Source: Candidatus Peregrinibacteria bacterium RIFOXYA2_FULL_41_18
GTDB taxonomy: Bacteria > Patescibacteriota > Gracilibacteria > UBA1369 > UBA12470
Direction: 5' to 3'
Assembly (NCBI GenBank): GCA_001788795.1
Contig: MFXH01000018.1
Location: 85,963 to 149,962 of the forward strand
Length of the DNA: 64,000 nucleotides
Shown: positions 6,156 through 62,149 of the stretch, in pieces
Position numbering within the stretch: position 1 is the first letter of the stretch
Layout of the letters: each line of letters opens with the position of its first letter
Position numbers and translations under genes: made by a program
The notes under the pieces: generated by a model
Databases searched by the model: none
Told to the model about the DNA's origin: nothing
What the model saw: the letters and a program-made list of their open reading frames with translations, nothing else

Positions 6156-6197
6156 GGGAAGTATAAGAAGTTGGGGAAGTATGGGAAGTGACATAGT
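6155..6197. repeat. 9-bp-period GAAGT array with conserved tail
   Basis: Four degenerate 9-bp units around GGGGAAGTA overlap the stop codon of the deaminase gene and end in the tail GGGAAGTGACATAGT. This is one of six related arrays in the window, all with the purine-rich strand on plus. Confidence 0.75.
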
Positions 6198-6264
6198 TAA
6201 TGTTTTGAGTTGCCAGTTTTTATTCCGGATGATAATTTGATCCCCAAAATTTAACTTAAAACAT

Positions 6265-9401: not shown

Positions 9402-9404
9402 GTG

Positions 9405-9439
9405 GTAAGGAGCAAGACACAAGACACAGACAGCAGAGA
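9405..9439. repeat. 7-bp-period array, copy 1 of the 35-bp dispersed element
   Basis: Five 7-bp units, beginning gtaagga then gcaagac, follow the alaS stop. All 35 bases are identical to the copy at 25946-25980. A shorter version lies at 22785-22812 and a related one at 36741-36775. Confidence 0.8.
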
Positions 9440-13778: not shown

Positions 13779-14861
13779 TTAGAGGCTCTTTAGATATAAC
13801 TGGTATGTTTTTTTAGAGGATTTCTCCCATGTGTATTTGGACCTCAAGAATGCAGTTTCTTTTCTCATTTTCTCCAACTTGGTCTTGTCGTTCAGAAGTT
13901 CCAATATTTTTCTTGAAGCTTCCTGCGCATTGTTTTTCTGGACCAGAAGTCCGTGCTGACCGTACAGTTCTCGATGCACCGGTATGTCTGAGATTATTAT
14001 CGGCGTGCCCGCATAAGCCGCTTCAAGCACCGGCAGATTGAATCCTTCGTTCTCCGATAAGTTAATGAACGCTTCCGCCTCTTTATAAAGTGTGTTTAGC
14101 TCTTCTTCGTTTACCGCCCCAGTTTTGAGTATGTTTAGTGTACCTCTTGCTATGTCTTTTGGCAAGCGTCCGGCAAGCACCAATTTCATCTCCGGAATAT
14201 CCTTCTGTATATGTGAAAAAACTTCCAATAAGTATTGTGTATTTTTTCGCGGATCGTAGCCTCCCACATAAAGTAAATACGGCTGCTTCAAACCTGTTTT
14301 GGCGCTTACGGGCCGAAGAAATTCTTCCGAAGCGCCTTCGTGTATCGTTTCGATTTTCGCGCTTGGGAAAAACCTCTTGAACTCAGCGGTTGTGGCCTCC
14401 GAAACCCCAATGAATTTAACATCAGGATTCGCCACGGATTTCGACAAGGATTTCCTTACCAACCAAAAATATATTTTAGATCTTATTTTTTTCGAATATC
14501 GCGAGTCCGTGAACTGGATCATGTCATGAATTGTTATAACAGACTTTGTCCCCAGTCCGCGTAGCGGATATGCCGGATATGTGAAGTGAATGATATCGAA
14601 TTTATTTTTTTTAAAGAATTTCGGGACCTGAAATTGTTCCCAAAATCCTTTGCGCAATCCACCAATCAGCATCCATTTTTTTTCAGGTATAATTTTTATC
14701 TTAACATTCGGTGGAAATGACTCTTCCGTTTTGCCGTTCGTCACCAATGTAAACTCGTCTCCCGGACTCATCTCCGCCATGCGTCTAAAAAGATTTATCG
14801 TATATTGACCGATACCAGTATAAGGTTGGCTCAACAATCTTGCGTTTACACCTATTTTCAT
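13779..14861 (-). CDS. GT4-family glycosyltransferase
   Basis: This 360-aa retaining glycosyltransferase has the GT-B fold. The N-terminal Rossmann half opens with IGVNARLLSQPYTGIGQY, including the glycine-rich acceptor loop. The C-terminal donor half has LLYVGGYDPRKNT and the E-x7-E motif in ENEGFNLPVLEAAYAG. There is no membrane segment, so it acts on the cytosolic membrane face. It follows murG by about 20 bp, separated by a short GAAGT array. Acceptor and donor cannot be read from sequence. Confidence 0.88.
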   Translation of the reverse strand: MKIGVNARLLSQPYTGIGQYTINLFRRMAEMSPGDEFTLVTNGKTEESFPPNVKIKIIPEKKWMLIGGLRKGFWEQFQVPKFFKKNKFDIIHFTYPAYPLRGLGTKSVITIHDMIQFTDSRYSKKIRSKIYFWLVRKSLSKSVANPDVKFIGVSEATTAEFKRFFPSAKIETIHEGASEEFLRPVSAKTGLKQPYLLYVGGYDPRKNTQYLLEVFSHIQKDIPEMKLVLAGRLPKDIARGTLNILKTGAVNEEELNTLYKEAEAFINLSENEGFNLPVLEAAYAGTPIIISDIPVHRELYGQHGLLVQKNNAQEASRKILELLNDKTKLEKMRKETAFLRSKYTWEKSSKKTYQLYLKSL

Positions 14862-14880
14862 GGGGAAGTTGGAGAAGTAA
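14862..14880. repeat. Short 9-bp-period GAAGT array
   Basis: Two units (gggaagttg, gagaagtaa) fill the gap between murG and the glycosyltransferase gene. The GTGACATAGT tail found in the other copies is absent here. Confidence 0.5.
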
Positions 14881-14882
14881 AA

Positions 14883-15971
14883 TCAGTTTTTCAGAAGTAT
14901 TTCCGCTATGTCTGAAACAGGACGTAAATATGCTTCGCGGCAAGTCGCTCTCTTCCCAATACGAGAAAGATCCTTAATCGCTTCGATCAAGGTATTCGAA
15001 TTGAGCTTCTCGTCTTCTATGATCTTATAACGCCTCTTGTCTTTTTGTTTGAAATCCTTCGCGTTTTCAATCTGATCTCCGCGCGTGTACTTGGCCGAAA
15101 GAGGGATGATTATAGCAGGCATCCCGAATGGTTCTATCTCTGCCAAACTGTTCGCTCCTCCGCGCGAAATAACAATGTCGGCAATCGCGTAAAAATGTTT
15201 GAGCTCCTTGCCAACATATTCATACTCGACATAATTCTTCTTCAGTTTTTCGATAAGGAAATTTGATAATGACTTGGCACTTTTTTGATGACCGCAGATG
15301 TGGATTATCTGGTATTGCGGAATAAGTTTTGATAGAGATGCCCAAAGTACGTTGTTAATTCTCATTGCTCCTAAACTCCCGCCCATTGCGAGAACAACCG
15401 GCTTCTCATGCGAAAATCCAGTCAGTGCATATCCTTCATGCTTGCTACCTTTCAGGATTTCCGGGCGAATCGGCGTTCCTACGTGAATGATTTTTTTCTG
15501 CAAACGCCTAGGGAATCCTTTGATTGTATCTTCATAAGATGTCAGTATTTTATATGCGAATTTGCTTGCGACACGCGTAGCCAACCCCAGATTGGAATCC
15601 GATTCGTGGATTATTATTTTTTTGCGCAAGAGCGCTCCCGCCAATACAACCGGTACGGTAACGAATCCGCCTTTTGAGAAAATCACATCTGGCTTGAAAG
15701 ACTCTATTATCCGTAGTGACTGAATGAACCCCAGAGGCACTCTAAAAAAAAGATCTATTATGTTTTGTATTGCGAAATACCTCCTCACTTTTCCCGTTGA
15801 AATTGACTTGAAATCAATTCCAGCTTCCGAAATTAGCTTGCGTTCAAATTCGGATTTGGAGCCGACGTAAAGCAGTTTTGCGTCGTGTTTTCTTTTTTTA
15901 ATTTCAGCGGCTATAGCGATATTTGGCATAATGTGCCCCGCCGTACCGCCTCCTGTTAGAAGTATACGCAT
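14883..15971 (-). CDS. murG: UDP-GlcNAc:lipid I N-acetylglucosaminyltransferase MurG
   Basis: It transfers GlcNAc to lipid I to make lipid II on the cytosolic face of the membrane. The 362-aa GT28 protein has the GGGTAGHIMPNIAIA N-terminal loop, FSKGGFVTVPVVLA, the IIHESDSNLGLATRVA segment (the G2 loop region) and the donor-site ISRGGANSLAEIEPFGMP. It lies directly downstream of ftsW, as in the classical dcw cluster. The first 68 bp overlap the 3' end of ftsW in another frame, an unusually long overlap. Peptidoglycan synthesis is therefore expected in this organism. Confidence 0.92.
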   Translation of the reverse strand: MRILLTGGGTAGHIMPNIAIAAEIKKRKHDAKLLYVGSKSEFERKLISEAGIDFKSISTGKVRRYFAIQNIIDLFFRVPLGFIQSLRIIESFKPDVIFSKGGFVTVPVVLAGALLRKKIIIHESDSNLGLATRVASKFAYKILTSYEDTIKGFPRRLQKKIIHVGTPIRPEILKGSKHEGYALTGFSHEKPVVLAMGGSLGAMRINNVLWASLSKLIPQYQIIHICGHQKSAKSLSNFLIEKLKKNYVEYEYVGKELKHFYAIADIVISRGGANSLAEIEPFGMPAIIIPLSAKYTRGDQIENAKDFKQKDKRRYKIIEDEKLNSNTLIEAIKDLSRIGKRATCREAYLRPVSDIAEILLKN

Positions 15972-17867: not shown

Positions 17868-17873
17868 GGTTTT

Positions 17874-17916
17874 GGGGAAGTTGGGGAAGTAGAAGAAGTA
17901 GGAGAAGTGACATAGT
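17874..17916. repeat. 9-bp-period GAAGT array with conserved tail
   Basis: Four 9-bp units end in GAGAAGTGACATAGT. The array lies between the minus-strand paralogue genes, inside the predicted leader of the gene at 17196-17867. Confidence 0.75.
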
Positions 17917-17932
17917 AAGAAGAGGCGGTCGA

Positions 17933-19125: not shown

Positions 19126-19914
19126 ATGGGTGATACAAAAACAGATTTCGGACCAAGAAAAGTTTCTTTGCTTGTACTCGGATTTCGCGCACTCGCCGGA
19201 ATTGCAGGCGGCATTGTTGGGACAATGGTTTTGCTATTTTCCGTATTCTTGGGTGCAAGTTTTTTCTCGACCGAACAAGGTGTCGAGACATCTCTCAACC
19301 CTCTCGTCATTTTTGTTTTTATGGCTGTGACATTTTTGAGCTCATGCTTGGCGAATTGCGTTAGTACGTTTCTGATCGGATTAACGGACCGCTCTAAATA
19401 TAAGAACCTTTTTTCTTCGATGTATCAGATTTTTGCGGTAAATCTTGCGATCATGATTTTGATGGCTCCGATTTACATAATCGTATCAGGCTTGGACATG
19501 GCAACAATGGCTTATGTCGCCGCAATACAGATATTGCTCAGTGTTATTGCCAGCGCAATGATTTTGGAAATTTTGTCAGATGCGAAATATGCTCTGCTTG
19601 GAGTTTATAATGTCGTCTTGGGTTTGATTTTTGCAAGTGCTCTTAATTTCGCTCTATATCAATTGGTCGGTCAGAATCCAACAATCTTATTGTTCGCCGC
19701 ATTGCCGGTTATATGGATGATGCTAGGTCTATTTAACGGACTTGTCGGAATGGGCTATAGGTTTGTTTATGACTCTTATGGAATAGATTTTTTGAGCAAA
19801 TATGTGAAATACGGTCGCGATGAAGAGGAACCTGAAGCGGAAGAGGAGATTACCGAAAAGGAGATCCTTGGGATGAAGAAGGATTATTCGGGTGGGGAGT
19901 TCCTGAAGAAGTAG
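19126..19914 (+). CDS. Unknown polytopic membrane protein
   Basis: This 262-aa protein has about six hydrophobic helices between residues 13 and 225. A cytosolic acidic tail follows (DEEEPEAEEEITEKE), ending GGEFLKK. No family is recognised. It starts 10 bp after lspA, so the two are likely co-transcribed. Its last residues closely resemble the end of the MscS-like channel in this window (GAEFLNRQ), and both stop codons run into GAAGT arrays. Confidence 0.7.
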   Translation: MGDTKTDFGPRKVSLLVLGFRALAGIAGGIVGTMVLLFSVFLGASFFSTEQGVETSLNPLVIFVFMAVTFLSSCLANCVSTFLIGLTDRSKYKNLFSSMYQIFAVNLAIMILMAPIYIIVSGLDMATMAYVAAIQILLSVIASAMILEILSDAKYALLGVYNVVLGLIFASALNFALYQLVGQNPTILLFAALPVIWMMLGLFNGLVGMGYRFVYDSYGIDFLSKYVKYGRDEEEPEAEEEITEKEILGMKKDYSGGEFLKK

Positions 19915-19939
19915 GGGGAAGTATGGGAAGTGACGTAGT
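19905..19939. repeat. 9-bp-period GAAGT array with variant tail
   Basis: The units start inside the last codons of the membrane-protein gene and continue to GGGAAGTGACGTAGT, a one-base variant of the usual tail. The array lies between convergent genes. Confidence 0.7.
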
Positions 19940-19948
19940 GAAGACGGC

Positions 19949-20722: not shown

Positions 20723-20742
20723 TCTATCGTGTGTTATATGGA

Positions 20743-20760
20743 GTTTCGCTGGTGCGAAAC
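20743..20760. repeat. Perfect 7-bp hairpin upstream of aroE
   Basis: GTTTCGC-TGGT-GCGAAAC forms a perfect stem with a 4-nt loop between aroE and the slipin gene. The flank ATGGA plus the stem recur at 30970-30987 inside the FemAB-like coding sequence. Confidence 0.55.
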
Positions 20761-20781
20761 AAACTTGATAATATTGCGCTG

Positions 20782-21567
20782 TTATTTCTTATTATTTAAA
20801 GTCTTATCCAATCCTTCAAGAGCCCTCAACACCTCTACCGGAACCATCCAGATAGTTGTATTCGATTCATCTGAAGAAATATCGTTAATGGATTGCAATG
20901 TTCTCAAATGCAGAGCTCCCGGAGCTGCGGCAAGCATATTTGCAGCCTTGGTAAGATTTTCAGCTGCCTGAACCTCGCCTTCGGCTTTAATCACCACCGC
21001 TCTTCTCTCCCTTTCCGCCTCGGCTTCTTTCGCTATAGTCCTCTTCATGTTTTCCGGAATCACTATATCCTTCAATTCAACATCTTCAACAAGAATTCCC
21101 CACTGTGCAGCCGTATCAACTATCATCTTCTTGATATTGTCAGAAACCTCTTCTTTATTCTGCAATAAATAGTCGAGCGAAAATCCTCCAACTATGTTCC
21201 TCATTGTGGTCTGAGCCAATTGGCTTATCGCATAATAGAAGTTTTCAACAGCTATAAAAGACTTAGCCGCGTCAATTATCTTATAATAAATAACTGCATT
21301 GATGTGGATCGATATGTTGTCCTTGGTGATAGCCTCTTGATCCGCAACATCAACCGCCTTCGTTCTAATATCAACTTTTTGCATAGATTGAAAAATCGGG
21401 ATTATGATTCTCCATCCTGGATTAACCGTACCCGTATATTTACCAAGAGTGAACTTAACACCTCTCTGGTATTCGTTTATCTGTCTGATGGATATCAGAA
21501 GAATTATTCCGACTATGAATACTATCGGGAAGAATAGCGCTATCATTCCACCTATTACGATCTCCAT
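20782..21567 (-). CDS. SPFH/Band 7 slipin (stomatin-like membrane protein)
   Basis: The 261-aa protein has one N-terminal membrane hairpin or helix (about residues 4-27). The SPFH domain follows (GRRII.PIFQ.-type strand WRIIIPIFQSMQKVDIRTKAVDV, then ITKDNISIHINAVIYYKI), then the Ala/Glu-rich coiled coil EAEAERERRAVVIKAEGE. This order is typical of slipins, which organise membrane microdomains. The ORF track begins at TTG (21591). I chose the ATG at 21567, which sits just downstream of an extended -10. No NfeD partner is adjacent. Confidence 0.88.
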   Translation of the reverse strand: MEIVIGGMIALFFPIVFIVGIILLISIRQINEYQRGVKFTLGKYTGTVNPGWRIIIPIFQSMQKVDIRTKAVDVADQEAITKDNISIHINAVIYYKIIDAAKSFIAVENFYYAISQLAQTTMRNIVGGFSLDYLLQNKEEVSDNIKKMIVDTAAQWGILVEDVELKDIVIPENMKRTIAKEAEAERERRAVVIKAEGEVQAAENLTKAANMLAAAPGALHLRTLQSINDISSDESNTTIWMVPVEVLRALEGLDKTLNNKK

Positions 21568-21679: not shown

Positions 21680-23041
21680 ATGAATTTGCTACATTTTCTC
21701 GTCCCTGTCGCCAATGCCGTTTCTCTAACAGACAAAAGCTCTGAAACAGCTTCGCAAAGTGAAGAGGCTGTGACATCTTTCTTGGCTTATGTATGGGATC
21801 GCCTTGATAACTGGATCGCGGCGATAGTCCTTGTTATTTTCTCGGTTTATTTTGCAAAAGTTATAAGAAAGCTTGTTGTAAACAAAATCACTGAAAAGAT
21901 GGGAGATGAACATGAAGATGTACTTATATTGGTCGGCAGAGCGACTTTTGCAGGCGTTTTGGCTATCGGAGTGACTGCCGGTCTTAAGGTTGGAGGTATC
22001 GACTTAACTGCACTGATTGCCGCAGTCGGATTCGGAATCGGTTTTGCCTTGCAAGATATCATTATGAACTTCATCGCAGGTGTTCTTATATTGGCCTCAA
22101 GACAATTTACTATTGGTGATTTTATTGAGGTAGATGGAACGCTTGGTAAAGTTAAGGAAATCCAATCGAGAGCAACAATTCTACAAGCCGTAGATGGAAC
22201 AAAAATTATCGTTCCAAATGCAGATCTTTTTACAAACAAGGTAACAAGTTTTACTACAAATCCTTATAGGAGAATCGAAATCGTTTACGGTATCGATTAC
22301 AGGGCGGATATCAGTAAGGCTATGAACATTATGCTCGCTGTTGTAAAAAGCGACGTGAAGGTTTTGAAGAAACCTGTACCGAGCGTTGTTCTGGATGAAT
22401 TTGGCGATAGTTCGATAAATTTTAAGGTCAGATTCTGGGTCGAATCGAAGTCGAAATGGGTACAATTGAAATCCGATATGCATAAGGCATTGAAAGATGC
22501 GCTTGAAAAGGCAGGTATAGATATGCCGTTTAACACGATGAATTTGGTTTTTGATAAAGATGTTCATAAGAACGTAATCTCAACCCATCCTATGTCTTCC
22601 GAAGAAATGAAACAGTTCGAAATGGAAAGAATTCAAGAGGAAGAGGAACAGGCTAAATCAGATGCGGGTGATCCAAATGTACAAGTTAAACAGGCGAACG
22701 GAGCCGAACAAACGGAACACCTTGACCTTGAAACTCTTGAGGAGGAACACAAGGCCGCCGAGCAAGCGAAGGCGGTGGCAGAGGGTAAGACACAAGACAC
22801 AGACAGCAGAGGGAATGCAAATGCGGCTACTACTCCAGCGGTTGCTGGACCGGTAACACCTGTAGTACCTGTGACACCTGCTACTCCCGTAGTGCCGGTT
22901 GCTGCACAGTCTATTCCTGTAACTCCGATAGTTGATGCAACGGCAGCAACTGTTGTGCCAACTCCTGTAACGGTACAAGAACCTCCAATCCCGATAAACA
23001 AGGGTGATATGGCTGGGGCGGAATTCCTGAATAGACAGTAG
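21680..23041 (+). CDS. mscS: MscS-family mechanosensitive channel with long low-complexity tail
   Basis: This small-conductance osmotic valve is 453 aa. An N-terminal periplasmic/TM1 part is followed by TM2 and the pore helix TM3 (LIAAVGFGIGFALQDIIMNFIAGV). The beta domain (IGDFIEVDGTLGKVKEIQSRAT) and C-terminal vestibule region run to about residue 300. A disordered tail of about 140 residues follows, first acidic and coiled-coil-like, then Pro/Val/Thr-rich (TPVVPVTP repeats). A 7-bp-period array lies in frame at residues 369-378. The tail ends GAEFLNRQ, like the 19126 protein. Confidence 0.9.
   Translation: MNLLHFLVPVANAVSLTDKSSETASQSEEAVTSFLAYVWDRLDNWIAAIVLVIFSVYFAKVIRKLVVNKITEKMGDEHEDVLILVGRATFAGVLAIGVTAGLKVGGIDLTALIAAVGFGIGFALQDIIMNFIAGVLILASRQFTIGDFIEVDGTLGKVKEIQSRATILQAVDGTKIIVPNADLFTNKVTSFTTNPYRRIEIVYGIDYRADISKAMNIMLAVVKSDVKVLKKPVPSVVLDEFGDSSINFKVRFWVESKSKWVQLKSDMHKALKDALEKAGIDMPFNTMNLVFDKDVHKNVISTHPMSSEEMKQFEMERIQEEEEQAKSDAGDPNVQVKQANGAEQTEHLDLETLEEEHKAAEQAKAVAEGKTQDTDSRGNANAATTPAVAGPVTPVVPVTPATPVVPVAAQSIPVTPIVDATAATVVPTPVTVQEPPIPINKGDMAGAEFLNRQ
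22785..22812. repeat. 7-bp-period array inside the MscS coding sequence
   Basis: Four units equal the 35-bp element at 9405 and 25946 minus exactly one 7-bp unit. It is read in frame as a Lys/Thr/Gln/Asp-rich peptide in the disordered tail. Confidence 0.75.
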
Positions 23042-23074
23042 AAGAAGTTGGGGAAGTAGGAGAAGTGACATAGT
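23036..23074. repeat. 9-bp-period GAAGT array with conserved tail
   Basis: The array begins at the MscS stop codon and ends GAGAAGTGACATAGT, directly abutting the TATAAT of nnrD. Confidence 0.75.
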
Positions 23075-23075
23075 A

Positions 23076-23081
23076 TATAAT
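23076..23081 (+). promoter_or_regulatory. TATAAT element 6 nt before the nnrD start
   Basis: A perfect -10 hexamer ends 6 nt before the ATG at 23088, placing the expected transcript start at or within a base or two of the start codon. This implies a leaderless mRNA unless transcription comes from mscS. Confidence 0.45.
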
Positions 23082-23087
23082 TTAATC

Positions 23088-25014: not shown

Positions 25015-26019
25015 ATGACAAAACAGCCGAAAAAAATAGATTTTGCTGTCGGCGGACAAGCCGTTATGGAAGGCGTTATGATGAGATCGCCGCGTTTTTA
25101 CGCAGTTGCTGTTAGAAAAGATGATGGTCGTATACGAGTTCATGAAAAAGAATTCACAAGTTTAACCAAAAGATTTTCGCTTTTCGGGCTACCGATTTTG
25201 AGAGGGTTAATACATCTCTTTGAATCCATGTATATCGGATTAAACGCGCTTCAAATTTCCAATTCCGAATTCATTGCCGGAGATAAGGATCATACGATTA
25301 ACAAGAAGGCTCTTTGGCGTGAGATCCTTGAAGCCGTTTTCGCCTTTTTATATTTAATTCTTGTTTTCGGATTTGCGATTTTCTTGTTTAAATTTTTGCC
25401 ACTTTGGATTACGAATTTTGCAAGTTCAAAATGGATTTTTCTAGACGACCATTTCTGGGCTTTCAACATGCTGGACGGATTGGTAAAAATGAGTTTCTTC
25501 CTTGTTTATCTATTATTGATTTCTTTAATTCCGGATATTAAACGCGTGTTTGAATATCACGGAGCCGAACACAAATCCATTTGGACTTATGAACTCGAAC
25601 AGACTCTGATACCCGCCAATGCAAAAAAACAAACGAGATTCCATCCGCGATGCGGAACAAGTTTTATCTTGCTTGTCATATTAATCAGTATTGCAATTTA
25701 CACAGCCATTCCACGACCTGACGGCGGATTCCTCATTATGTTCGCGCAAAGAGTTGCATTCCTGCCATTAATCGCAGGAATTTCCTACGAAGCCCTCAAA
25801 TTAAGCGCGAAACATATGGATTCCGCGTTTGTTCGCGCGATCACAGCTCCCGGTTTGTGGTTGCAAAAAATAACCACCCGCGAACCGGATGAAAAACAAC
25901 TCGAAGTTGCAATCTGCGCGCTTGAGAAATGCTTGGAGCTGGAGGGTAAGGAGCAAGACACAAGACACAGACAGCAGAGAGATTGCAAGTGGCGCAGACC
26001 TACGACGACCTATGCCTAA
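25015..26019 (+). CDS. DUF1385 (YqhQ-like) membrane protein
   Basis: This 334-aa integral membrane protein of unknown function has the diagnostic GGQAVMEGVMMRSP near the N-terminus, EYHGAEHKSIWTYE in the middle and FHPRCGTSFILLVIL before the last helices. About four helices are visible. The track opens at TTG (25006). I chose the ATG at 25015, eight bases after a perfect TATAAT. The normal domain ends near residue 308. The last about 25 residues (basic, Gln/Arg-rich) are translated from a 7-bp-period array and look like an acquired tail. It overlaps the convergent small gene by 4 bp. Confidence 0.85.
   Translation: MTKQPKKIDFAVGGQAVMEGVMMRSPRFYAVAVRKDDGRIRVHEKEFTSLTKRFSLFGLPILRGLIHLFESMYIGLNALQISNSEFIAGDKDHTINKKALWREILEAVFAFLYLILVFGFAIFLFKFLPLWITNFASSKWIFLDDHFWAFNMLDGLVKMSFFLVYLLLISLIPDIKRVFEYHGAEHKSIWTYELEQTLIPANAKKQTRFHPRCGTSFILLVILISIAIYTAIPRPDGGFLIMFAQRVAFLPLIAGISYEALKLSAKHMDSAFVRAITAPGLWLQKITTREPDEKQLEVAICALEKCLELEGKEQDTRHRQQRDCKWRRPTTTYA
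25946..25980. repeat. 7-bp-period array, copy 2 of the 35-bp dispersed element
   Basis: The array is identical over 35 bases to 9405-9439 but lies inside the 3' end of the DUF1385 coding sequence, where it encodes a basic, Gln-rich tail. Confidence 0.8.
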
Positions 26020-29444: not shown

Positions 29445-29489
29445 TGAAGAAGTTGGAGAAGTAGAAGAAGTATGAGAAGTGACATAGTG
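29435..29489. repeat. 9-bp-period GAAGT array spanning a stop and the next start codon
   Basis: This is the longest GAAGT array. It supplies the last codons and stop of the GT4-deacetylase gene, and its tail (TATGAGAAGTGACATAGT) supplies the apparent ATG and first codons of the next gene. Confidence 0.75.
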
Positions 29490-30437
29490 AATAATGAGAA
29501 GATACAACCTAAGATTTATGACCAGTTACAATCTATAATGCATTACGATTTCAACTACATTCGGTCCGGACTCGACTTCATTCTGAAGCAAAGTTCTTTG
29601 GCGCATGTTCGTCCGAAGAAGATTCTTGTTCCAGCATTCATCTGCCCGATTGTTCCGGAAGTTATTCGACGAAACGGATTTGAAGTTGAGTTCGTCGATG
29701 CTGATTTGGATAGTTTTAATATGAAAATTCCAGCATCTGATTTGGATGGAATTGGAGCCGTATTTGTTTGCCATACTTTCGGAGCTAAATGCGAAGTTCC
29801 GAGCGGCGTTAAGACTATTGAAGATTGTGCTCATTTTCTGTCGAAAGAGCGTGAAGGAGATTTCGCGCTCTACAGTATGTATAAACAGATTCGGAATGTA
29901 CGCGGTGGATATGTCGAATGTGACGAAGATTTGAGCAAGACTTACGATCATCTTTTAACAGACAGTGTTCGAGTGCGCGACTTGCCTTTATTGTTTATGA
30001 ATTCACGTTTTTTCGATCTTCCGAGATCGCTGAAAGGCTTACCGTCATGCAGTCCGGCCGAATCTGAAAAGTGGGATGTGCTTAAGGCTTCTCACCTGAC
30101 CAAGAAACTTTTTGAGAAAAAAAAGCTTCCAGATTCCGATATCTATAAAGATATGAAAAATGCTTTCAATAATCTTGGACTTGGCAAATTTTTCGCGATG
30201 CAAAAAATGCCCGAAGGTTCCGTTCCTTATAATTTTTCGATTCGTGTTATTGATGATTCCATTTCGAGAGATGAGCTTTTATTACGACTGAGGCGCAGAC
30301 GAGTTTTTGCCGATAGGATGTGGTATAACGCAGATACGGGTTCGTGCAAAAATGCGGAAATTCTGGCTGAGACAATTATCAATCTGCCTATTAATTTAAA
30401 TTCATTAGTCGAACTTAAAAATGCAATTCCACGATAA
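29472..30437 (+). CDS. DegT/DnrJ-like PLP-fold aminotransferase homologue
   Basis: This 321-aa protein resembles the sugar-aminotransferase fold: KILVPAFICPIVPEVIRRNG, EVEFVDADLDSFNM, TIEDCAHFLS and YSMYKQIRNVRGGYVE. The last places a lysine where the short YSxxK variant of the family binds PLP. It lacks the full C-terminal part of typical 370-400-aa members. The apparent ATG lies inside the GAAGT array. A GTG at 29487 or an ATG at about 29538 are alternatives, so the first residues are uncertain. It overlaps the FemAB-like fusion gene by 17 bp, so the two probably act together. Substrate unknown. Confidence 0.65.
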   Translation: MRSDIVNNEKIQPKIYDQLQSIMHYDFNYIRSGLDFILKQSSLAHVRPKKILVPAFICPIVPEVIRRNGFEVEFVDADLDSFNMKIPASDLDGIGAVFVCHTFGAKCEVPSGVKTIEDCAHFLSKEREGDFALYSMYKQIRNVRGGYVECDEDLSKTYDHLLTDSVRVRDLPLLFMNSRFFDLPRSLKGLPSCSPAESEKWDVLKASHLTKKLFEKKKLPDSDIYKDMKNAFNNLGLGKFFAMQKMPEGSVPYNFSIRVIDDSISRDELLLRLRRRRVFADRMWYNADTGSCKNAEILAETIINLPINLNSLVELKNAIPR

Positions 30438-31989
30438 GACAATTTTTCATACAGTTGAATGGGGGAAGTTTTTAGAAAAAATTCTCCATGGGAAAATTGA
30501 GACTATCGAGTCGGAGAAAGGCTTGCTGCCTATTTTCAGAGGCAGCTCAATCCCGTTGGCCGACTATTGTGGACCTGTCGGAGATGTGGCGATACCGGAT
30601 GGGGTGGAGGTTTTTTCTTTAAAAAAACTGCCTGGGTTCAAAGAGTCGCCATTTTGCACGTTCAAGCTCGTGATAGGTGGAAAAAGCTATGAAGAGATTT
30701 TGAAACATGTCATTCATCAGAAAACGCGCAACATGATAAACAAAGCTGTGCGTGAGGGCGTACATGTTTACAAGGTTGAGCTTAATAAAAAACATTTATC
30801 TGCTTATTACCGCCTGTATGTTTCGACAATGTTACGACTCAATCGCGTGCCTCTGCCCATGAAGGCTTTTTCGGTTTTACCGAATATTTTCGGTGAGAAA
30901 GTCGAGCTTTATTTGGCTGAATATAATGGCAAGTTTATAGGAGGAATTATTTCTTTTGTCTATAATGGAGTTTCGCATTCGCGAAACGACTTATCTGATG
31001 GCGCAAGGAATGCTTCGCGTCCTAGCGCTGACGGCAGAATGCATATTTGGAGCAATGCGTCTGCTAGTAAATTGAGCGGGCTCGGGGTGAATAACGCCCT
31101 TTATGCGTATGCGATAGAGCGCGCGAGCGAACTCAAACTTAATGAAGTGGATTTCGGTAGTAGTGCAATCGGGTCGTCGCATCATTTCTTCAAAAAAAGA
31201 TTTGGAGGGATCGAGACGCCGATCTATTGCAATCATGAAATCGATGCTGATGTCAGAGCCGGAATGCTTGTAAAACTGGTGACTTTTATTATGAAATTTT
31301 TGCCAATTTCGCTTGTGAGTTTTCTCTCTAGAATCGCTCATAAAACATCTTTTAGAAGTGTTTTTAAAATTGCGTGCGGGATATTTTTACCTTTGTTTTT
31401 ATTATTTCTAATCTCTCCTTTACTCATCTTTAATTCTGGTAAAAAACAGATTTATACCGACATTAATCTTGTACCGAATTATGAAGTCGCAATTGTGTTT
31501 GGGGCCGGTATAAAAGATGATGGCACTCCTTCAGACGCTCTGAAAGACAGGCTCGTAACTGCTGCTCAATTGTATGATTCCGGCAAAGTCGAAAAAATCT
31601 TGGTATCGGGAGATAACAGCCTTGAGCATTATGATGAACCGACCGCAATGTACACATATTTGGTTGATAGCGAGGGCATACCTGCAGAAGATGTCTTCGT
31701 GGATTTTGCAGGAAGACGAACTTATGATACTTGCGTACGTGCGCATGAAATTTGGGGCGTTGATGAAGCAATTCTTATATCGCAAGGATTTCATTTGCCG
31801 AGGGCTATTTTTACCTGTAATGCGCTTGGGGTTGATAGTTCTGGATATTCAGCCACCAATCAGAGTTATGTCCTTTCAAGATATTATAAATTTCGAGAAG
31901 TTTTGGCTATTTACAACGCCGTTATAGATGTGTATTTGTGGGGACCGGATTATATTGGAGGAGAAATTGAATTGGACTTGGATAATTAA
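30421..31989 (+). CDS. Fusion of FemAB-like acyltransferase and SanA/DUF218-like domain
   Basis: Residues 1-275 resemble FemAB/GNAT-type transferases that pass aminoacyl or acyl groups to lipid-linked envelope precursors (LGVNNALYAYAIERASEL, VDFGSSAIGSSHHFFKKRFGG). A hydrophobic helix follows at about 313-337. Residues 355-475 are a SanA/YdcF (DUF218) domain: AIVFGAGIKDDGTPSDALKDR, ILVSGDN, YDEPTAMYTYL, TYDTCVRAHEI and ISQGFHLPRAIF. The first half would be cytosolic and the second outside. I do not know this fusion from named systems. A palindromic motif lies inside the FemAB part. It is coupled to the aminotransferase-like gene upstream. Confidence 0.8.
   Translation: MQFHDKTIFHTVEWGKFLEKILHGKIETIESEKGLLPIFRGSSIPLADYCGPVGDVAIPDGVEVFSLKKLPGFKESPFCTFKLVIGGKSYEEILKHVIHQKTRNMINKAVREGVHVYKVELNKKHLSAYYRLYVSTMLRLNRVPLPMKAFSVLPNIFGEKVELYLAEYNGKFIGGIISFVYNGVSHSRNDLSDGARNASRPSADGRMHIWSNASASKLSGLGVNNALYAYAIERASELKLNEVDFGSSAIGSSHHFFKKRFGGIETPIYCNHEIDADVRAGMLVKLVTFIMKFLPISLVSFLSRIAHKTSFRSVFKIACGIFLPLFLLFLISPLLIFNSGKKQIYTDINLVPNYEVAIVFGAGIKDDGTPSDALKDRLVTAAQLYDSGKVEKILVSGDNSLEHYDEPTAMYTYLVDSEGIPAEDVFVDFAGRRTYDTCVRAHEIWGVDEAILISQGFHLPRAIFTCNALGVDSSGYSATNQSYVLSRYYKFREVLAIYNAVIDVYLWGPDYIGGEIELDLDN
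30970..30987. repeat. Perfect 7-bp hairpin inside the FemAB-like coding sequence
   Basis: GTTTCGC-ATTC-GCGAAAC has the same stem and the same ATGGA flank as the hairpin at 20743-20760, but a different loop. The downstream 50 bp encode a Ser/Ala/Arg-rich stretch that looks inserted relative to usual FemAB proteins. Confidence 0.5.
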
Positions 31990-31994
31990 TTTTT

Positions 31995-33149
31995 ATGAAA
32001 CGAATCTTAATAATTTGCGGCGACCTGAATCCAAACGACCTCGGCGGGGCGGAGGTGCATATTGTTGAAGTTATCAAAAGACTTGCTCATCTTGGATATA
32101 AGATTGATGTTTTTGTCGGGATCGATGATTCGATCAAATCTGTTCTAGATCATGAGAATATATCGATTCATACTGTTAAATACAGGCAAGTGAAAAATCT
32201 TTATAGCGTGTTTTATGCACGTGCGGCTTTGAAGCAGATTCGTGCGTTTTTGCGTGAAAATAAGGTGGATATTGTGCACTCGAAACAAACTTACCCTCAA
32301 GGTTATATCGCGGCTAAATTGAAGCGCGAGTTTGGATTATCTTTTTATCAAACCATTCAAAATCCTCTCGCTTACAAAGAGGAGTTGGTCGTTAAGGGTG
32401 GCATTATGAAAATGATGAGTTTTTTATGGCTAAAGTTTGCCGAGAGATGGGTCAAATTTGCGATGCGGAATACCGACTTGTGCGGATGTGTAAGCAGTTA
32501 TTCGGAGGAGAAGGCGATTATGCTCGGGGCCAAGAAAACTATGATTATTCCAAATGGCGTTGATACGAAGATTTTTCATCCTTCTACGGATAGGGTTGGT
32601 GGATATAAAATCGTTACAACTTCGACCCTAATTCCGCGCAATGGAATAGATGTGCTTGTGAGAGCTTTCGGGCATGTCGCACGCGGTATACCTGAGGCAA
32701 CGCTCGAAATTGCCGGTGAAGGACCGATGGAGGATGAGCTCAGTCACCTCGCAAAAGAGCTTGGCGTTGAGGATCGCGTGAAGTTCTTGGGGACTTTACC
32801 TCATAAGATGGTGCCGGATTTATTGCGCAGTGCAGACTTGTTTGTCAGACCTTCGCGAGCTGAGGGTTTCGGCGTTTCTTTTGTCGAAGCGATGGCTTGC
32901 GGCGTACCTGTTATTACATGCCCGAGCGGAGGGATTGTGGATTTTGTTGTTGATGGAGAGACCGGAATTTTGGTTAAGCCGGATGATCCGAAAGGGCTTG
33001 CTGAGGCGATTGAGGCTGTATTCAGCGATGTCGGGAAATTGGAAGATATGAAGAATAATGCACTGAAGATGGTGCGCGAAAGATATTCGTGGGATAAAAT
33101 TACGAATAAGGTTCGCGAAGCGTATGAGGTCATAGGTCATAGGTCATAG
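31995..33149 (+). CDS. GT4-family glycosyltransferase
   Basis: This 384-aa GT-B enzyme has the acceptor loop GDLNPNDLGGAEVHIVEVIKRL, the hinge TTSTLIPRNGIDVLV, a donor-site IAGEGPMEDEL and the E-x7-E motif in AEGFGVSFVEAMACGVP. It follows the FemAB fusion by 5 bp in the same operon. The last residues (VIGHRS) and the stop are supplied by a 7-bp-period array, so the native C-terminus may have been altered. Confidence 0.88.
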   Translation: MKRILIICGDLNPNDLGGAEVHIVEVIKRLAHLGYKIDVFVGIDDSIKSVLDHENISIHTVKYRQVKNLYSVFYARAALKQIRAFLRENKVDIVHSKQTYPQGYIAAKLKREFGLSFYQTIQNPLAYKEELVVKGGIMKMMSFLWLKFAERWVKFAMRNTDLCGCVSSYSEEKAIMLGAKKTMIIPNGVDTKIFHPSTDRVGGYKIVTTSTLIPRNGIDVLVRAFGHVARGIPEATLEIAGEGPMEDELSHLAKELGVEDRVKFLGTLPHKMVPDLLRSADLFVRPSRAEGFGVSFVEAMACGVPVITCPSGGIVDFVVDGETGILVKPDDPKGLAEAIEAVFSDVGKLEDMKNNALKMVRERYSWDKITNKVREAYEVIGHRS

Positions 33150-33162: not shown

Positions 33163-33201
33163 TGAAATACTTTATAGGCTTTTTACTGGCGTAAAACGGC
33201 T

Positions 33202-33216
33202 TATAATATGTATAAT
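33202..33216 (+). promoter_or_regulatory. Double TATAAT before the RfbE-like gene
   Basis: Two perfect TATAAT hexamers, 9 bp apart, lie 30-39 bp before the ATG at 33246. No strong -35 is visible. This suggests a new transcription unit after the array. Confidence 0.45.
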
Positions 33217-33245
33217 TTAATGGCAAAATTAATTCTTACTATTTT

Positions 33246-35820: not shown

Positions 35821-37291
35821 TTTTATAAATTGAAACGACTCCTTGTTCAAAAACCGAATCGATGCCTTCCAGCATCTTGATTTCATCTTGCGATAACACT
35901 GTACCGTCTTGAATCATTAAATAGTCATGATCAAATAATTCTTCTGTAATTGACGTGCTTACGTTTTCCTTGTTGCCATCTCCATAAGCCAATATCCATT
36001 CATAAGATCTGAATGATGATGCTCCGCTTATATTATTCACCAACCAAAAATCCGCTCCTAAATCATTCAAGTATTGAGCAGATGCCAACTCGTCTTGCGT
36101 TATCGCTGGCTCGATTTCCGCTACCAGCAATCCTAAGAGAGCCGCTTGCCACAGCACTCCAACCGTCAATATCGCAAAACATATTTTTTTCAATTTAGGT
36201 ACTGATTTCATCATTTCGAATGCTAAGTACGCCGTCAAAATCGTCAGTATGATGAAATGGAACGCCTGATATCGATAAACAAATAAGCTCAGCCATATCT
36301 CATCAGGCACCAAGAAATTCGTCAGATTGACGATTATAAAAGATGGGATTGCAAGTCCGAGAATTTTCCAGTTTTGTTTGTAAAAAGCATAAATAAATCC
36401 CGCGAATCCGAGTATTATCAACACCGGTCCGTCAGTTATAATTCCGTAATGCCAAAACTGAGGAACTTTGTCATAAAACTTCAAATAATCTATCCATTCG
36501 GAAACCCAATACGTTCTCGTACCTGCCAGCACAAAAGGTATAAAAGTTGCCATGAATGCGACTACCGATATCAAAATCGTGTAAATTATCGTCGAAATCG
36601 TCTTTTCTCCAAGCACGCCTAAATCGAATTTTATCTCCGGAAGTTTTATGCGTGCATTTTTCAAAACTTTTATTCCAATCCATAGGCCGATCATCAAGCA
36701 TATCGTGAATAGAAATTGAACCGTATGGCTGCCGGCAACAAGGATCAAGGAGCAAGACACAAGGATCAGAGAAGATTTTTTGTTTTTCTCAAGATATTCA
36801 AGGTAGTAATAAATGGCGGGAATACTGAAAGCCATGGCGCAGACATTCGCCCAATTCCCTCCGAATAACAGGAAGTACAGCCTAAAATTAATTGCGTTAA
36901 ACAGTGTCGTTATAAGTGCGATATTTCTTGATCCTGTAAGTTTCTTAACAAGAAGATATAAATAAAAATTCGCCAAAACCAATAGAATGCCCAGCGCTCC
37001 TCCATTTATAACAATCCTTTCTCCAAAAATCTTAATAAATCCAGCCATGTAAACTATAGGTGCCGGCAAAAATTCGTTTATATGCGTTGCTTCATCCCCT
37101 TTTGCAGGGATGAAATCCTGCAGCTCCGCGAAAAAATCACCCGTATCAGCAAGCTGTTTCGATGTTTCAAAATATGTAAGACCGTCCGTTTGAGTTACAG
37201 GTAGTGGCGTCAAAAAAGTCGGATATAAAACAACTGCCAGATTTATGGCAAGGATTAAAATAAGCAAAATGTTTTGTCTGATTTTTCCCAT
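35813..37291 (-). CDS. Polytopic GT-C-like membrane protein
   Basis: This 492-aa protein has about 11 hydrophobic helices and a C-terminal extracytoplasmic part (about 400-492) with a SASSFRSYEWILAY segment. The first outer loop has an acidic pair region (TDGLTYFETSKQLADTGDF), as in lipid-linked-sugar-dependent GT-C enzymes. Specific family membership is not certain. It forms a coupled unit with the methyltransferase gene upstream and gtrA downstream, consistent with glycan modification at the outer membrane face. A 7-bp-period array in helix 6 encodes the repeat LILVSCSLILV. Confidence 0.7.
   Translation of the reverse strand: MGKIRQNILLILILAINLAVVLYPTFLTPLPVTQTDGLTYFETSKQLADTGDFFAELQDFIPAKGDEATHINEFLPAPIVYMAGFIKIFGERIVINGGALGILLVLANFYLYLLVKKLTGSRNIALITTLFNAINFRLYFLLFGGNWANVCAMAFSIPAIYYYLEYLEKNKKSSLILVSCSLILVAGSHTVQFLFTICLMIGLWIGIKVLKNARIKLPEIKFDLGVLGEKTISTIIYTILISVVAFMATFIPFVLAGTRTYWVSEWIDYLKFYDKVPQFWHYGIITDGPVLIILGFAGFIYAFYKQNWKILGLAIPSFIIVNLTNFLVPDEIWLSLFVYRYQAFHFIILTILTAYLAFEMMKSVPKLKKICFAILTVGVLWQAALLGLLVAEIEPAITQDELASAQYLNDLGADFWLVNNISGASSFRSYEWILAYGDGNKENVSTSITEELFDHDYLMIQDGTVLSQDEIKMLEGIDSVFEQGVVSIYKND
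36741..36775. repeat. 7-bp-period array inside a transmembrane helix coding region
   Basis: Five units (aggatca, aggagca, agacaca, aggatca, gagaaga) share 17 consecutive bases with the 35-bp element. Read on the minus strand, the 21-bp superperiod encodes a hydrophobic repeat that fits a helix. Confidence 0.65.
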
Positions 37292-60595: not shown

Positions 60596-62149
60596 TTATG
60601 TGTAATTTTTGATATAAAATTCTTTGAGTATGCGGTAAAGTACTTTTTTGGTCGGTCCTTTTGGTATTTCATCCGTAATTATTATCTTTTTTGCTTGTTT
60701 GTATTGGGCTATTTTCCCCTTGCAAAAAACCTTAAGCTCTTCTTCGGTTGCTGTAAGATTATCATGCAGCTTAACAAATGCGCAAATATCTTCTCCAAGC
60801 AGTTTATCTGGAATGCCTATAACTGCACTTTCTGCAACAGCCGGATGTCTAAACAAAACATTTTCCAGTTCGGCCGGATAAATATTTTCACCTCCTTTTA
60901 TAATTAAGAAATCTTTTCTCGTCTTGAAATAGAAATAATTGTTTGCATCCCTGTATCCATAATCTCCGGAATGAAACCATCCGTTGCGAAAAGCTTTTTT
61001 ATTTTTCTCTTCCAATCCAAGATATTCTTTTGCCACATTCAATCCTCTGATACATATCTCTCCTTCTTGATTCGGACCGAGTTCGTTATCCAAGTCATCA
61101 ACTATAGTCATTTCATTAACAGGCAGCGGTCTGCCTACAGATCCTTGTCTCCTGTTATCTGCCGGATAATCATTGAAACATGCAAATGATGTCGTTTCTG
61201 TTAGTCCGAATCCTTCGAAAATCGGGACCTTGAATCTTTTTTCGAAATCCTTTTGTACGCTAGGTATAAGTATTTGCCCTCCGCAAAATATTCCTTGCAT
61301 AGTACTATCCGTTCTTTCTATCTTCAAGCTTAGCAGAATCGATAGAATTGATGGCATTACGCTTGTCCAATTTATTTCATATTTTTCCGCGAGCCCCCAA
61401 AAAGACATCAAGCTCGCTTTTCCTTTCACTATCACTGTCGATCCTCCAGTGTATAACGGATTCAGTAGCGTCATTACCTGTCCGTTGTTATGAAATAACG
61501 GAAGTATGCATAACGTCCTTGTGTTCTCAGTAAATTTAAACCACCCCGACACCGCACAAGCATCCGCCAGCAAGTTAAGATGCGTAAGGACAACTCCTTT
61601 AGGGTTGCCCGTTGTCCCAGAAGTGTAAATTATCACAGCTTCATCGTACAATTCTATGTTCGGAAGATTCACGGATTCTTTTTGAGGTTTCTTCAAGTCT
61701 TCCGTGTTTACGAACGCGACTTCGTTAAATCGCATATCGGATATCTTATGCTCGTATAGAGGATCATAAAAAACATATTTCGATCCGCTGTTTTTTATTA
61801 TGAATTCCATCTCCGGCGGAGATAAGTCCTGATTAATCGGAACTATTACGATTCCACTCATCAATCCGGCAAAATAAAAGCATACGAATTCCGACGAATT
61901 TGGAATAATTAAACTTATTCTATCCCCTTTTTTAAGATCTTTGGATTTGAGATAATTAACAGTTTCGAATATGCGCGATTGTAATTGCTTGTAAGTATAA
62001 ATTTCTTCATCTTTTCCAGGACAGAATAAAAATTCTTTGTTCGGCGAAGATTGTGCATGCGAATTAAAAAGATCTCCTACGTTTTTATACCGAATCGGCA
62101 TGTCGGTTTTTATACGTTGATGCGCCGGTATTTTCGCCGGATCAATCAT
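60596..62149 (-). CDS. AMP-dependent acyl-CoA/acyl-ACP synthetase
   Basis: The 517-aa ANL-superfamily ligase has the P-loop YTSGTTGNPKG (175-185), FEGFGLTETTS, the FHSGDYGYRD motif, RKDFLIIKGGENIYP and a C-terminal lysine in KGPTKKVLYR. It activates a carboxylic acid with ATP and loads it on CoA or, given the flanking ACP genes, on holo-ACP. It is ATGA-coupled to ACP 1. Acid specificity cannot be read with confidence. Confidence 0.9.
   Translation of the reverse strand: MIDPAKIPAHQRIKTDMPIRYKNVGDLFNSHAQSSPNKEFLFCPGKDEEIYTYKQLQSRIFETVNYLKSKDLKKGDRISLIIPNSSEFVCFYFAGLMSGIVIVPINQDLSPPEMEFIIKNSGSKYVFYDPLYEHKISDMRFNEVAFVNTEDLKKPQKESVNLPNIELYDEAVIIYTSGTTGNPKGVVLTHLNLLADACAVSGWFKFTENTRTLCILPLFHNNGQVMTLLNPLYTGGSTVIVKGKASLMSFWGLAEKYEINWTSVMPSILSILLSLKIERTDSTMQGIFCGGQILIPSVQKDFEKRFKVPIFEGFGLTETTSFACFNDYPADNRRQGSVGRPLPVNEMTIVDDLDNELGPNQEGEICIRGLNVAKEYLGLEEKNKKAFRNGWFHSGDYGYRDANNYFYFKTRKDFLIIKGGENIYPAELENVLFRHPAVAESAVIGIPDKLLGEDICAFVKLHDNLTATEEELKVFCKGKIAQYKQAKKIIITDEIPKGPTKKVLYRILKEFYIKNYT

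Follow-up and report, generated by a model that had tools for sequence, protein, structure and literature searches.

For some two decades, palindromic repeats that are translated as part of proteins have been known mainly as an oddity of Rickettsia and Wolbachia, perhaps no more than a rickettsial accident. The Rickettsia palindromic elements (RPE) lie in frame inside conserved genes, where they are tolerated (PMC2229807); they are stem-loops of 105–146 bp with 12-bp terminal inverted repeats, and Wolbachia has a counterpart (PMC2229807 and references therein). REP elements, also short hairpin repeats, are sometimes found inside genes as well (PMC3733652). Of the proteins relevant here, Escherichia coli SanA acts in the periplasmic phase of peptidoglycan synthesis, and alanine mutants of its T125/H149/E182 triad do not complement (PMC12176290); its loss has been linked to lipid II availability (PMC13251401).

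In Candidatus Peregrinibacteria bacterium RIFOXYA2_FULL_41_18 (genome of 1.24 Mb, 99% complete), a SanA-type protein is fused behind a FemAB-like one, and a copy of a dispersed repeat sits in frame within the FemAB half. The locus lies in a stretch of 64,000 nucleotides (hereafter the window) and has the following parts:

29472–30437, + strand: DegT-like reading frame (321 aa), upstream, overlapping the fusion by 17 nt
30421–31989, + strand: FemAB–SanA fusion reading frame, 522 aa plus stop (open frame of 526 codons from stop to stop)
30421–31344, + strand: FemABX-like half, residues 1–308, insert included; its last residues align with the C-terminus of the stand-alone FemAB in the sister genus (...HKV-stop)
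31345–31986, + strand: SanA-type half, residues 309–522; its first residues align with the N-terminus of the stand-alone SanA in the sister genus
31357–31443, + strand: predicted transmembrane helix, residues ~313–341 (AlphaFold2 model of the SanA half)
31486–31839, + strand: DUF218 domain (PF02698, Pfam), residues 356–473
31720–31899, + strand: T434, H458 and E493, equivalent to T125, H149 and E182 of E. coli SanA
31995–33149, + strand: GT4 glycosyltransferase, downstream, adjoining the fusion

The sequence-only reading took the 522-aa frame for a FemAB/GNAT-like half, a transmembrane helix and a SanA/DUF218 half, an assignment that holds up. Acetyltransf_6 of the GNAT family (PF13480) scores 32.5 bits in the first half against a Pfam cut-off of 22, and FemAB itself (PF02388) falls just short (23.0 bits vs 24); the half is also near the PEP-CTERM-associated FemAB family TIGR03019 (NCBIfam), with a score far under the equivalog cut-off. 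DUF218 is well above threshold (74.6 bits, cut-off 27.6; Pfam), the fusion being the sole DUF218 protein of the host genome, and the score against the SanA equivalog NF008092 is far short (99.3 bits vs 363; NCBIfam). Structure prediction, which had been suggested as a check, was run on the two halves separately and recovered a FemABX-like and a YdcF/SanA-like fold. The model of the FemAB half (pLDDT 79, pTM 0.83) has the double-GNAT FemABX fold, with Foldseek returning tRNA-dependent peptide synthases and FemX (E 1.7e-10 to 4e-8, probability 1.00); given TM scores of 0.47–0.56, we regard the half as related rather than close to these proteins. The SanA half (pLDDT 94) begins with an N-terminal helix at ~313–341 and matches YdcF (E 9e-4). 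A sequence search of the PDB, using the whole protein and the SanA half, gave no meaningful match.

The second half thus carries the N-terminal membrane anchor, DUF218 domain and T/H/E triad of E. coli SanA, with a T–H spacing of 24 residues in both proteins; unlike E. coli SanA it is fused behind a FemAB-like domain, lies well under the equivalog cut-off and belongs to a host not closely related to Enterobacterales. The first half resembles FemX/FemABX transferases and TIGR03019 in predicted fold and in its place in a glycan cluster, and differs from them in a shorter N-terminal part, a 22-aa insert and the attached SanA. The coupling to a DegT-like gene that the sequence-only reading noted stands as far as the 17-nt overlap is concerned, and the same gene is the upstream neighbour in both the sister genus (genome G001) and a further related genus (genome G002); its identity as DegT is weak (PF01041, 13.2 bits vs a Pfam cut-off of 19.8).

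The origin of the fusion is best seen by comparison with these relatives. The operon of the sister genus reads GT4/deacetylase, DegT-like, FemAB (296 aa), a 109-aa gene without Pfam match (L037, 8520–8849), SanA (217 aa) and GT4. The 109-aa gene is missing from the window, which has ~400 nt fewer than the sister genus here, and at the codon level the join falls between residues 308 and 309, where the last FemAB residues (...SRIAHK) are followed directly by the first ones of SanA (TSFRSVFK..., aligned with MS-MRFVFR of the sister-genus protein). In G002 the two are also separate genes, with FemAB within the same cluster and SanA at another, unrelated locus. On this comparison the ancestral order was the one that the sister genus still has (GT4/deacetylase – DegT-like – FemAB – 109-aa gene – SanA – GT4), and the two frames became joined, just ahead of the SanA membrane anchor, when the segment separating them was lost. 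We hold the anatomy of the fusion, and its origin from separate neighboring genes, with high confidence.

A second fused frame was found neither among 88 further genomes of the order nor in a sample of 240 further genomes of the class (some families of which read TGA as sense, as internal TGA in homologues shows); the longest SanA frame elsewhere in both searches is 372 aa. Because the relatives encode separate genes and no second fused frame was found, the fusion is private to its lineage and not a conserved architecture. A new system built on this architecture, as the sequence-only reading had it, does not survive the finding that the fusion is unique among 89 genomes of the order and a 241-genome class sample, while the nearest relatives have the halves as separate genes, those of the sister genus lying at the corresponding locus; separate homologues were what that reading had itself named as a refutation. 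That reading had overlooked both these separate genes and the repeat insert at residues 184–205.

Two other accounts of the fusion bear on this result. An assembly or binning artefact, in which an intergenic deletion or a sequencing error made one frame, would fit with its presence in one genome only, a draft of 20 contigs; we judge it very unlikely, as the join is in frame, falls exactly at the FemAB end and SanA start, lies inside a contig of 149,962 bases and amounts to a clean loss of ~400 nt relative to the sister genus, which random misassembly would rarely produce. Still less credible, to the point of being highly improbable, is a conserved two-sided enzyme system resting on the fused form: the halves look intact and share an operon in the sister genus, and so may have related functions, but the order and class searches largely ruled out a conserved FemAB–SanA architecture, most of the genomes in both searches have SanA without a FemAB match, and the SanA of G002 sits apart from FemAB. 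We therefore retain the lineage-private fusion. Divergence from unfused relatives per codon position is 0.33/0.26/0.62 for the FemAB half and 0.27/0.13/0.62 for the SanA half, a third-position bias resembling that of neighboring genes, and by this measure both halves look intact and under selection; that selection, acting between genera, is mostly older than the fusion and is no proof that the fused form works. A separate SanA product may also be made from an internal start.

The topology implied by the sequence-only reading, a cytosolic transferase and an outer DUF218 domain on one chain, holds in the models: the predicted helix 313–341 precedes DUF218, as in SanA, which would leave the FemABX-like half membrane-tethered on the cytosolic side and DUF218 outside. 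In our leading model, an undecaprenyl-linked glycan that this cluster makes would receive an aminoacyl (or acyl) group, on an amino sugar, from the first half, and the second would act on, or gate the use of, the same lipid-linked material after flipping, as has been proposed for E. coli SanA and lipid II; the fusion would hold both putative activities in one place at 1:1. This picture, in which one membrane-tethered chain works on both faces of the membrane on a lipid-linked glycan, is the biochemical model we put forward, though with low confidence. A literature search for FemAB together with DUF218 (subscription journals and preprints outside its scope) found no paper. The chief interest of the fusion itself is its hint that one lipid-linked pathway employs both a FemAB-like transferase and a SanA-type protein.

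Within the FemAB half, protein matches to the sister genus and to G002 end at residue 183 and restart at 204, with contiguous stretches in the subject, and an alignment of ten FemAB proteins has a clean 22-aa gap in the nine others. The skipped residues match other reading frames of the same genome, and the insert DNA has 17 matches in the host genome. The corresponding features of the window are:

20739–20782, + strand: partial copy of the repeat (hairpin 1 and linker), E 2.6e-4
30966–31031, + strand: copy of the dispersed double-hairpin repeat at the insert site (model R1, 88.1 bits, E 5e-17)
30970–31035, + strand: 22-aa insert V184–G205 (VSHSRNDLSDGARNASRPSADG), net 66 nt, absent from FemAB homologues (9/9 aligned)

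Residues 184–205 are therefore not FemAB but an in-frame copy of a dispersed repeat. The AlphaFold2 model places them in a low-confidence loop with strands 171–181 and 206–214 on either side, a position between two strands that would make the insert tolerable; it would form a surface loop that is probably tolerated rather than useful. A weak and possibly decayed copy lies at 33176–33223 of the window, just upstream of an epimerase gene (E 0.065).

Aligned copies reveal a repeat made of hairpin 1 (GTTTCGC/GCGAAAC), a TATAAT-like linker and hairpin 2 (GCGCAAGGA...TCCTTGCGC), with consensus ends GGAG/ATGAG and GCGCTG. Strong covariation keeps the hairpins paired, so that selection maintains the structure of this dispersed repeat: in a set of 15 copies, both partners vary in 8 of the 19 base pairs while 95% of cells stay paired (matched by 0 of 500 shuffles), and in a larger set of 87 distinct copies both vary in 18 of the 19, with 186 double changes against 41 in shuffles, although the latter alignment was fitted to the covariance model and so leans towards the structure. 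The covariance model found at least 60 copies in the host genome, at least 21 in G002 and one in the sister genus; a refined model raised G002 to at least 28 and gave single weak matches in four other genomes of the order (all counts being lower bounds, as scoring was confined to the top candidates of each genome). In some copies (those near position 1501 of L098, L088 and L142) a CCTGCCTGTCCGGTAGGCAGGC-type hairpin is nested within a loop, which looks like the insertion of one palindromic repeat into a second one.

About ten copies in the host genome lie in frame inside genes, the split between coding and intergenic copies being drawn from the longest open frame through each copy rather than from gene calls (L123 and L134, which look like long antisense frames and not genes, were left out). 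Besides the fusion, the carriers are a radical SAM protein, a GmhB-HldE-like bifunctional protein, the N-terminal subunit of transketolase, endonuclease IV, CoaBC, IlvD, MurD (half a copy), DprA and the tail of a membrane protein; those of G002 are two glycosyltransferases and PabB, the latter apparently twice (G002:C6:60895-60972 and 61429-61494 in one gene). One of these two glycosyltransferases is the G002 orthologue of the downstream GT4, directly next to FemAB in this cluster, and its copy has the opposite orientation. Names come from Pfam for L073, L077, L062 and MurD, from PDB sequence matches for IlvD, endonuclease IV and PabB, and from sequence reading and homologues for the remainder. 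The in-frame copies use several frames and both orientations; a test for avoidance of in-frame stops gave p = 0.046, a circular figure to which we give no weight, since a stop-bearing copy would not count as coding. Empty sites identify several of these copies as insertions into conserved genes: relatives lack the insert in transketolase and CoaBC, as in FemAB; in IlvD, residues 157–173 are unmatched between contiguous stretches of a solved structure; and endonuclease IV likewise has an empty site when set against a solved structure.

The resemblance to the rickettsial and Wolbachia elements is considerable, in that all are dispersed, form hairpins, occur both between genes and in frame within them, are translated, and reside in reduced genomes with no known transposase. 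The window repeat is, however, ~66 nt long, consists of two adjacent hairpins joined by a TATAAT-like linker, the second with a stem of freely varying sequence, and belongs to another phylum; it has neither the 105–146 bp nor the 12-bp terminal inverted repeats of RPE proper. We do not file it as an RPE, since length and architecture differ, and it is by these features, not by direct sequence comparison, that it is set apart. Its dispersal suggests mobility: the repeat would insert between and inside genes, in various frames and both orientations, and would most probably spread as a short structured DNA or RNA mobilized in trans. That it is an RPE-like mobile insert we consider very likely.

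We weighed this against two further accounts of the repeat. A REP element mobilized by a RAYT, a tyrosine transposase of the IS200/IS605 type, would share its short, palindromic, dispersed and occasionally intragenic character, features typical of REPs (PMC3733652), and the sister genus has fragments of such a transposase (Y1_Tnp). Against this, the copy-rich host genome and G002 have no Y1_Tnp at E <= 0.001 and the genome with fragments has one copy; the consensus ends carry neither the GTAG nor the CGTC tag of the REP/RAYT system (PMC3733652), and unlike REPs the repeat often codes in frame. We think this origin unlikely. Slightly less probable again is a functional regulatory RNA or promoter cassette whose coding copies are accidental: most copies are intergenic, many lie on the 5′ side of a gene, and the linker, often TATAAT, looks like a -10 box, but copies occur in both orientations relative to genes and beside tRNAs, 13 or so are genic in several frames, copy number is very unequal between related genera (60, 28 and 1, as lower bounds), and a search of the window against Rfam found no family match. 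The RPE-like mobile insert accounts for these observations better, and the combination of private fusion, RPE-like insert and envelope model is, taken whole, a probable explanation of the locus.

A literature search for palindromic or in-frame repeat elements in Patescibacteria or CPR (again with subscription journals and preprints outside its scope) found none; two papers brought up by a broader search mention only CRISPR. We lean towards the view that this is an undescribed, recently active, mobile double-hairpin repeat which enters conserved genes in frame and has expanded in one Patescibacteria family separately from the rickettsial elements, with no tyrosine transposase resident there. 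If so, new peptide loops are accumulating steadily in the core enzymes of a reduced genome, as well as in one of its envelope proteins, the fusion, and a distant, also reduced lineage doing as Rickettsia does would mean a recurrent route of peptide gain in small genomes. Insert-bearing enzymes and their empty-site relatives would then provide many natural before/after pairs for assessing cost or benefit, as in the kinetic comparison made for rickettsial Gmk.

Two other dispersed repeats were observed. One (AAGACACAAGACACAGACAGCAGAG) is present in the window at 9404–9439, 22777–22812 and 25945–25980, and more weakly at 36737–36772; the copy at 25945 lies towards the end of the DUF1385 frame, and a similar peptide (DSKTQTAES) occurs in the GT4 gene of the sister genus at a place where the window and G002 have none. 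This repeat may be another coding insert. The other has a 9-nt phasing (GGAGAAGT units) and ends in GTGACATAGT, with copies in the window at 6160–6206, 14861–14887, 17873–17925, 19902–19948, 23037–23083 and 29445–29497, the last of which extends from immediately upstream of the DegT-like gene across its start.
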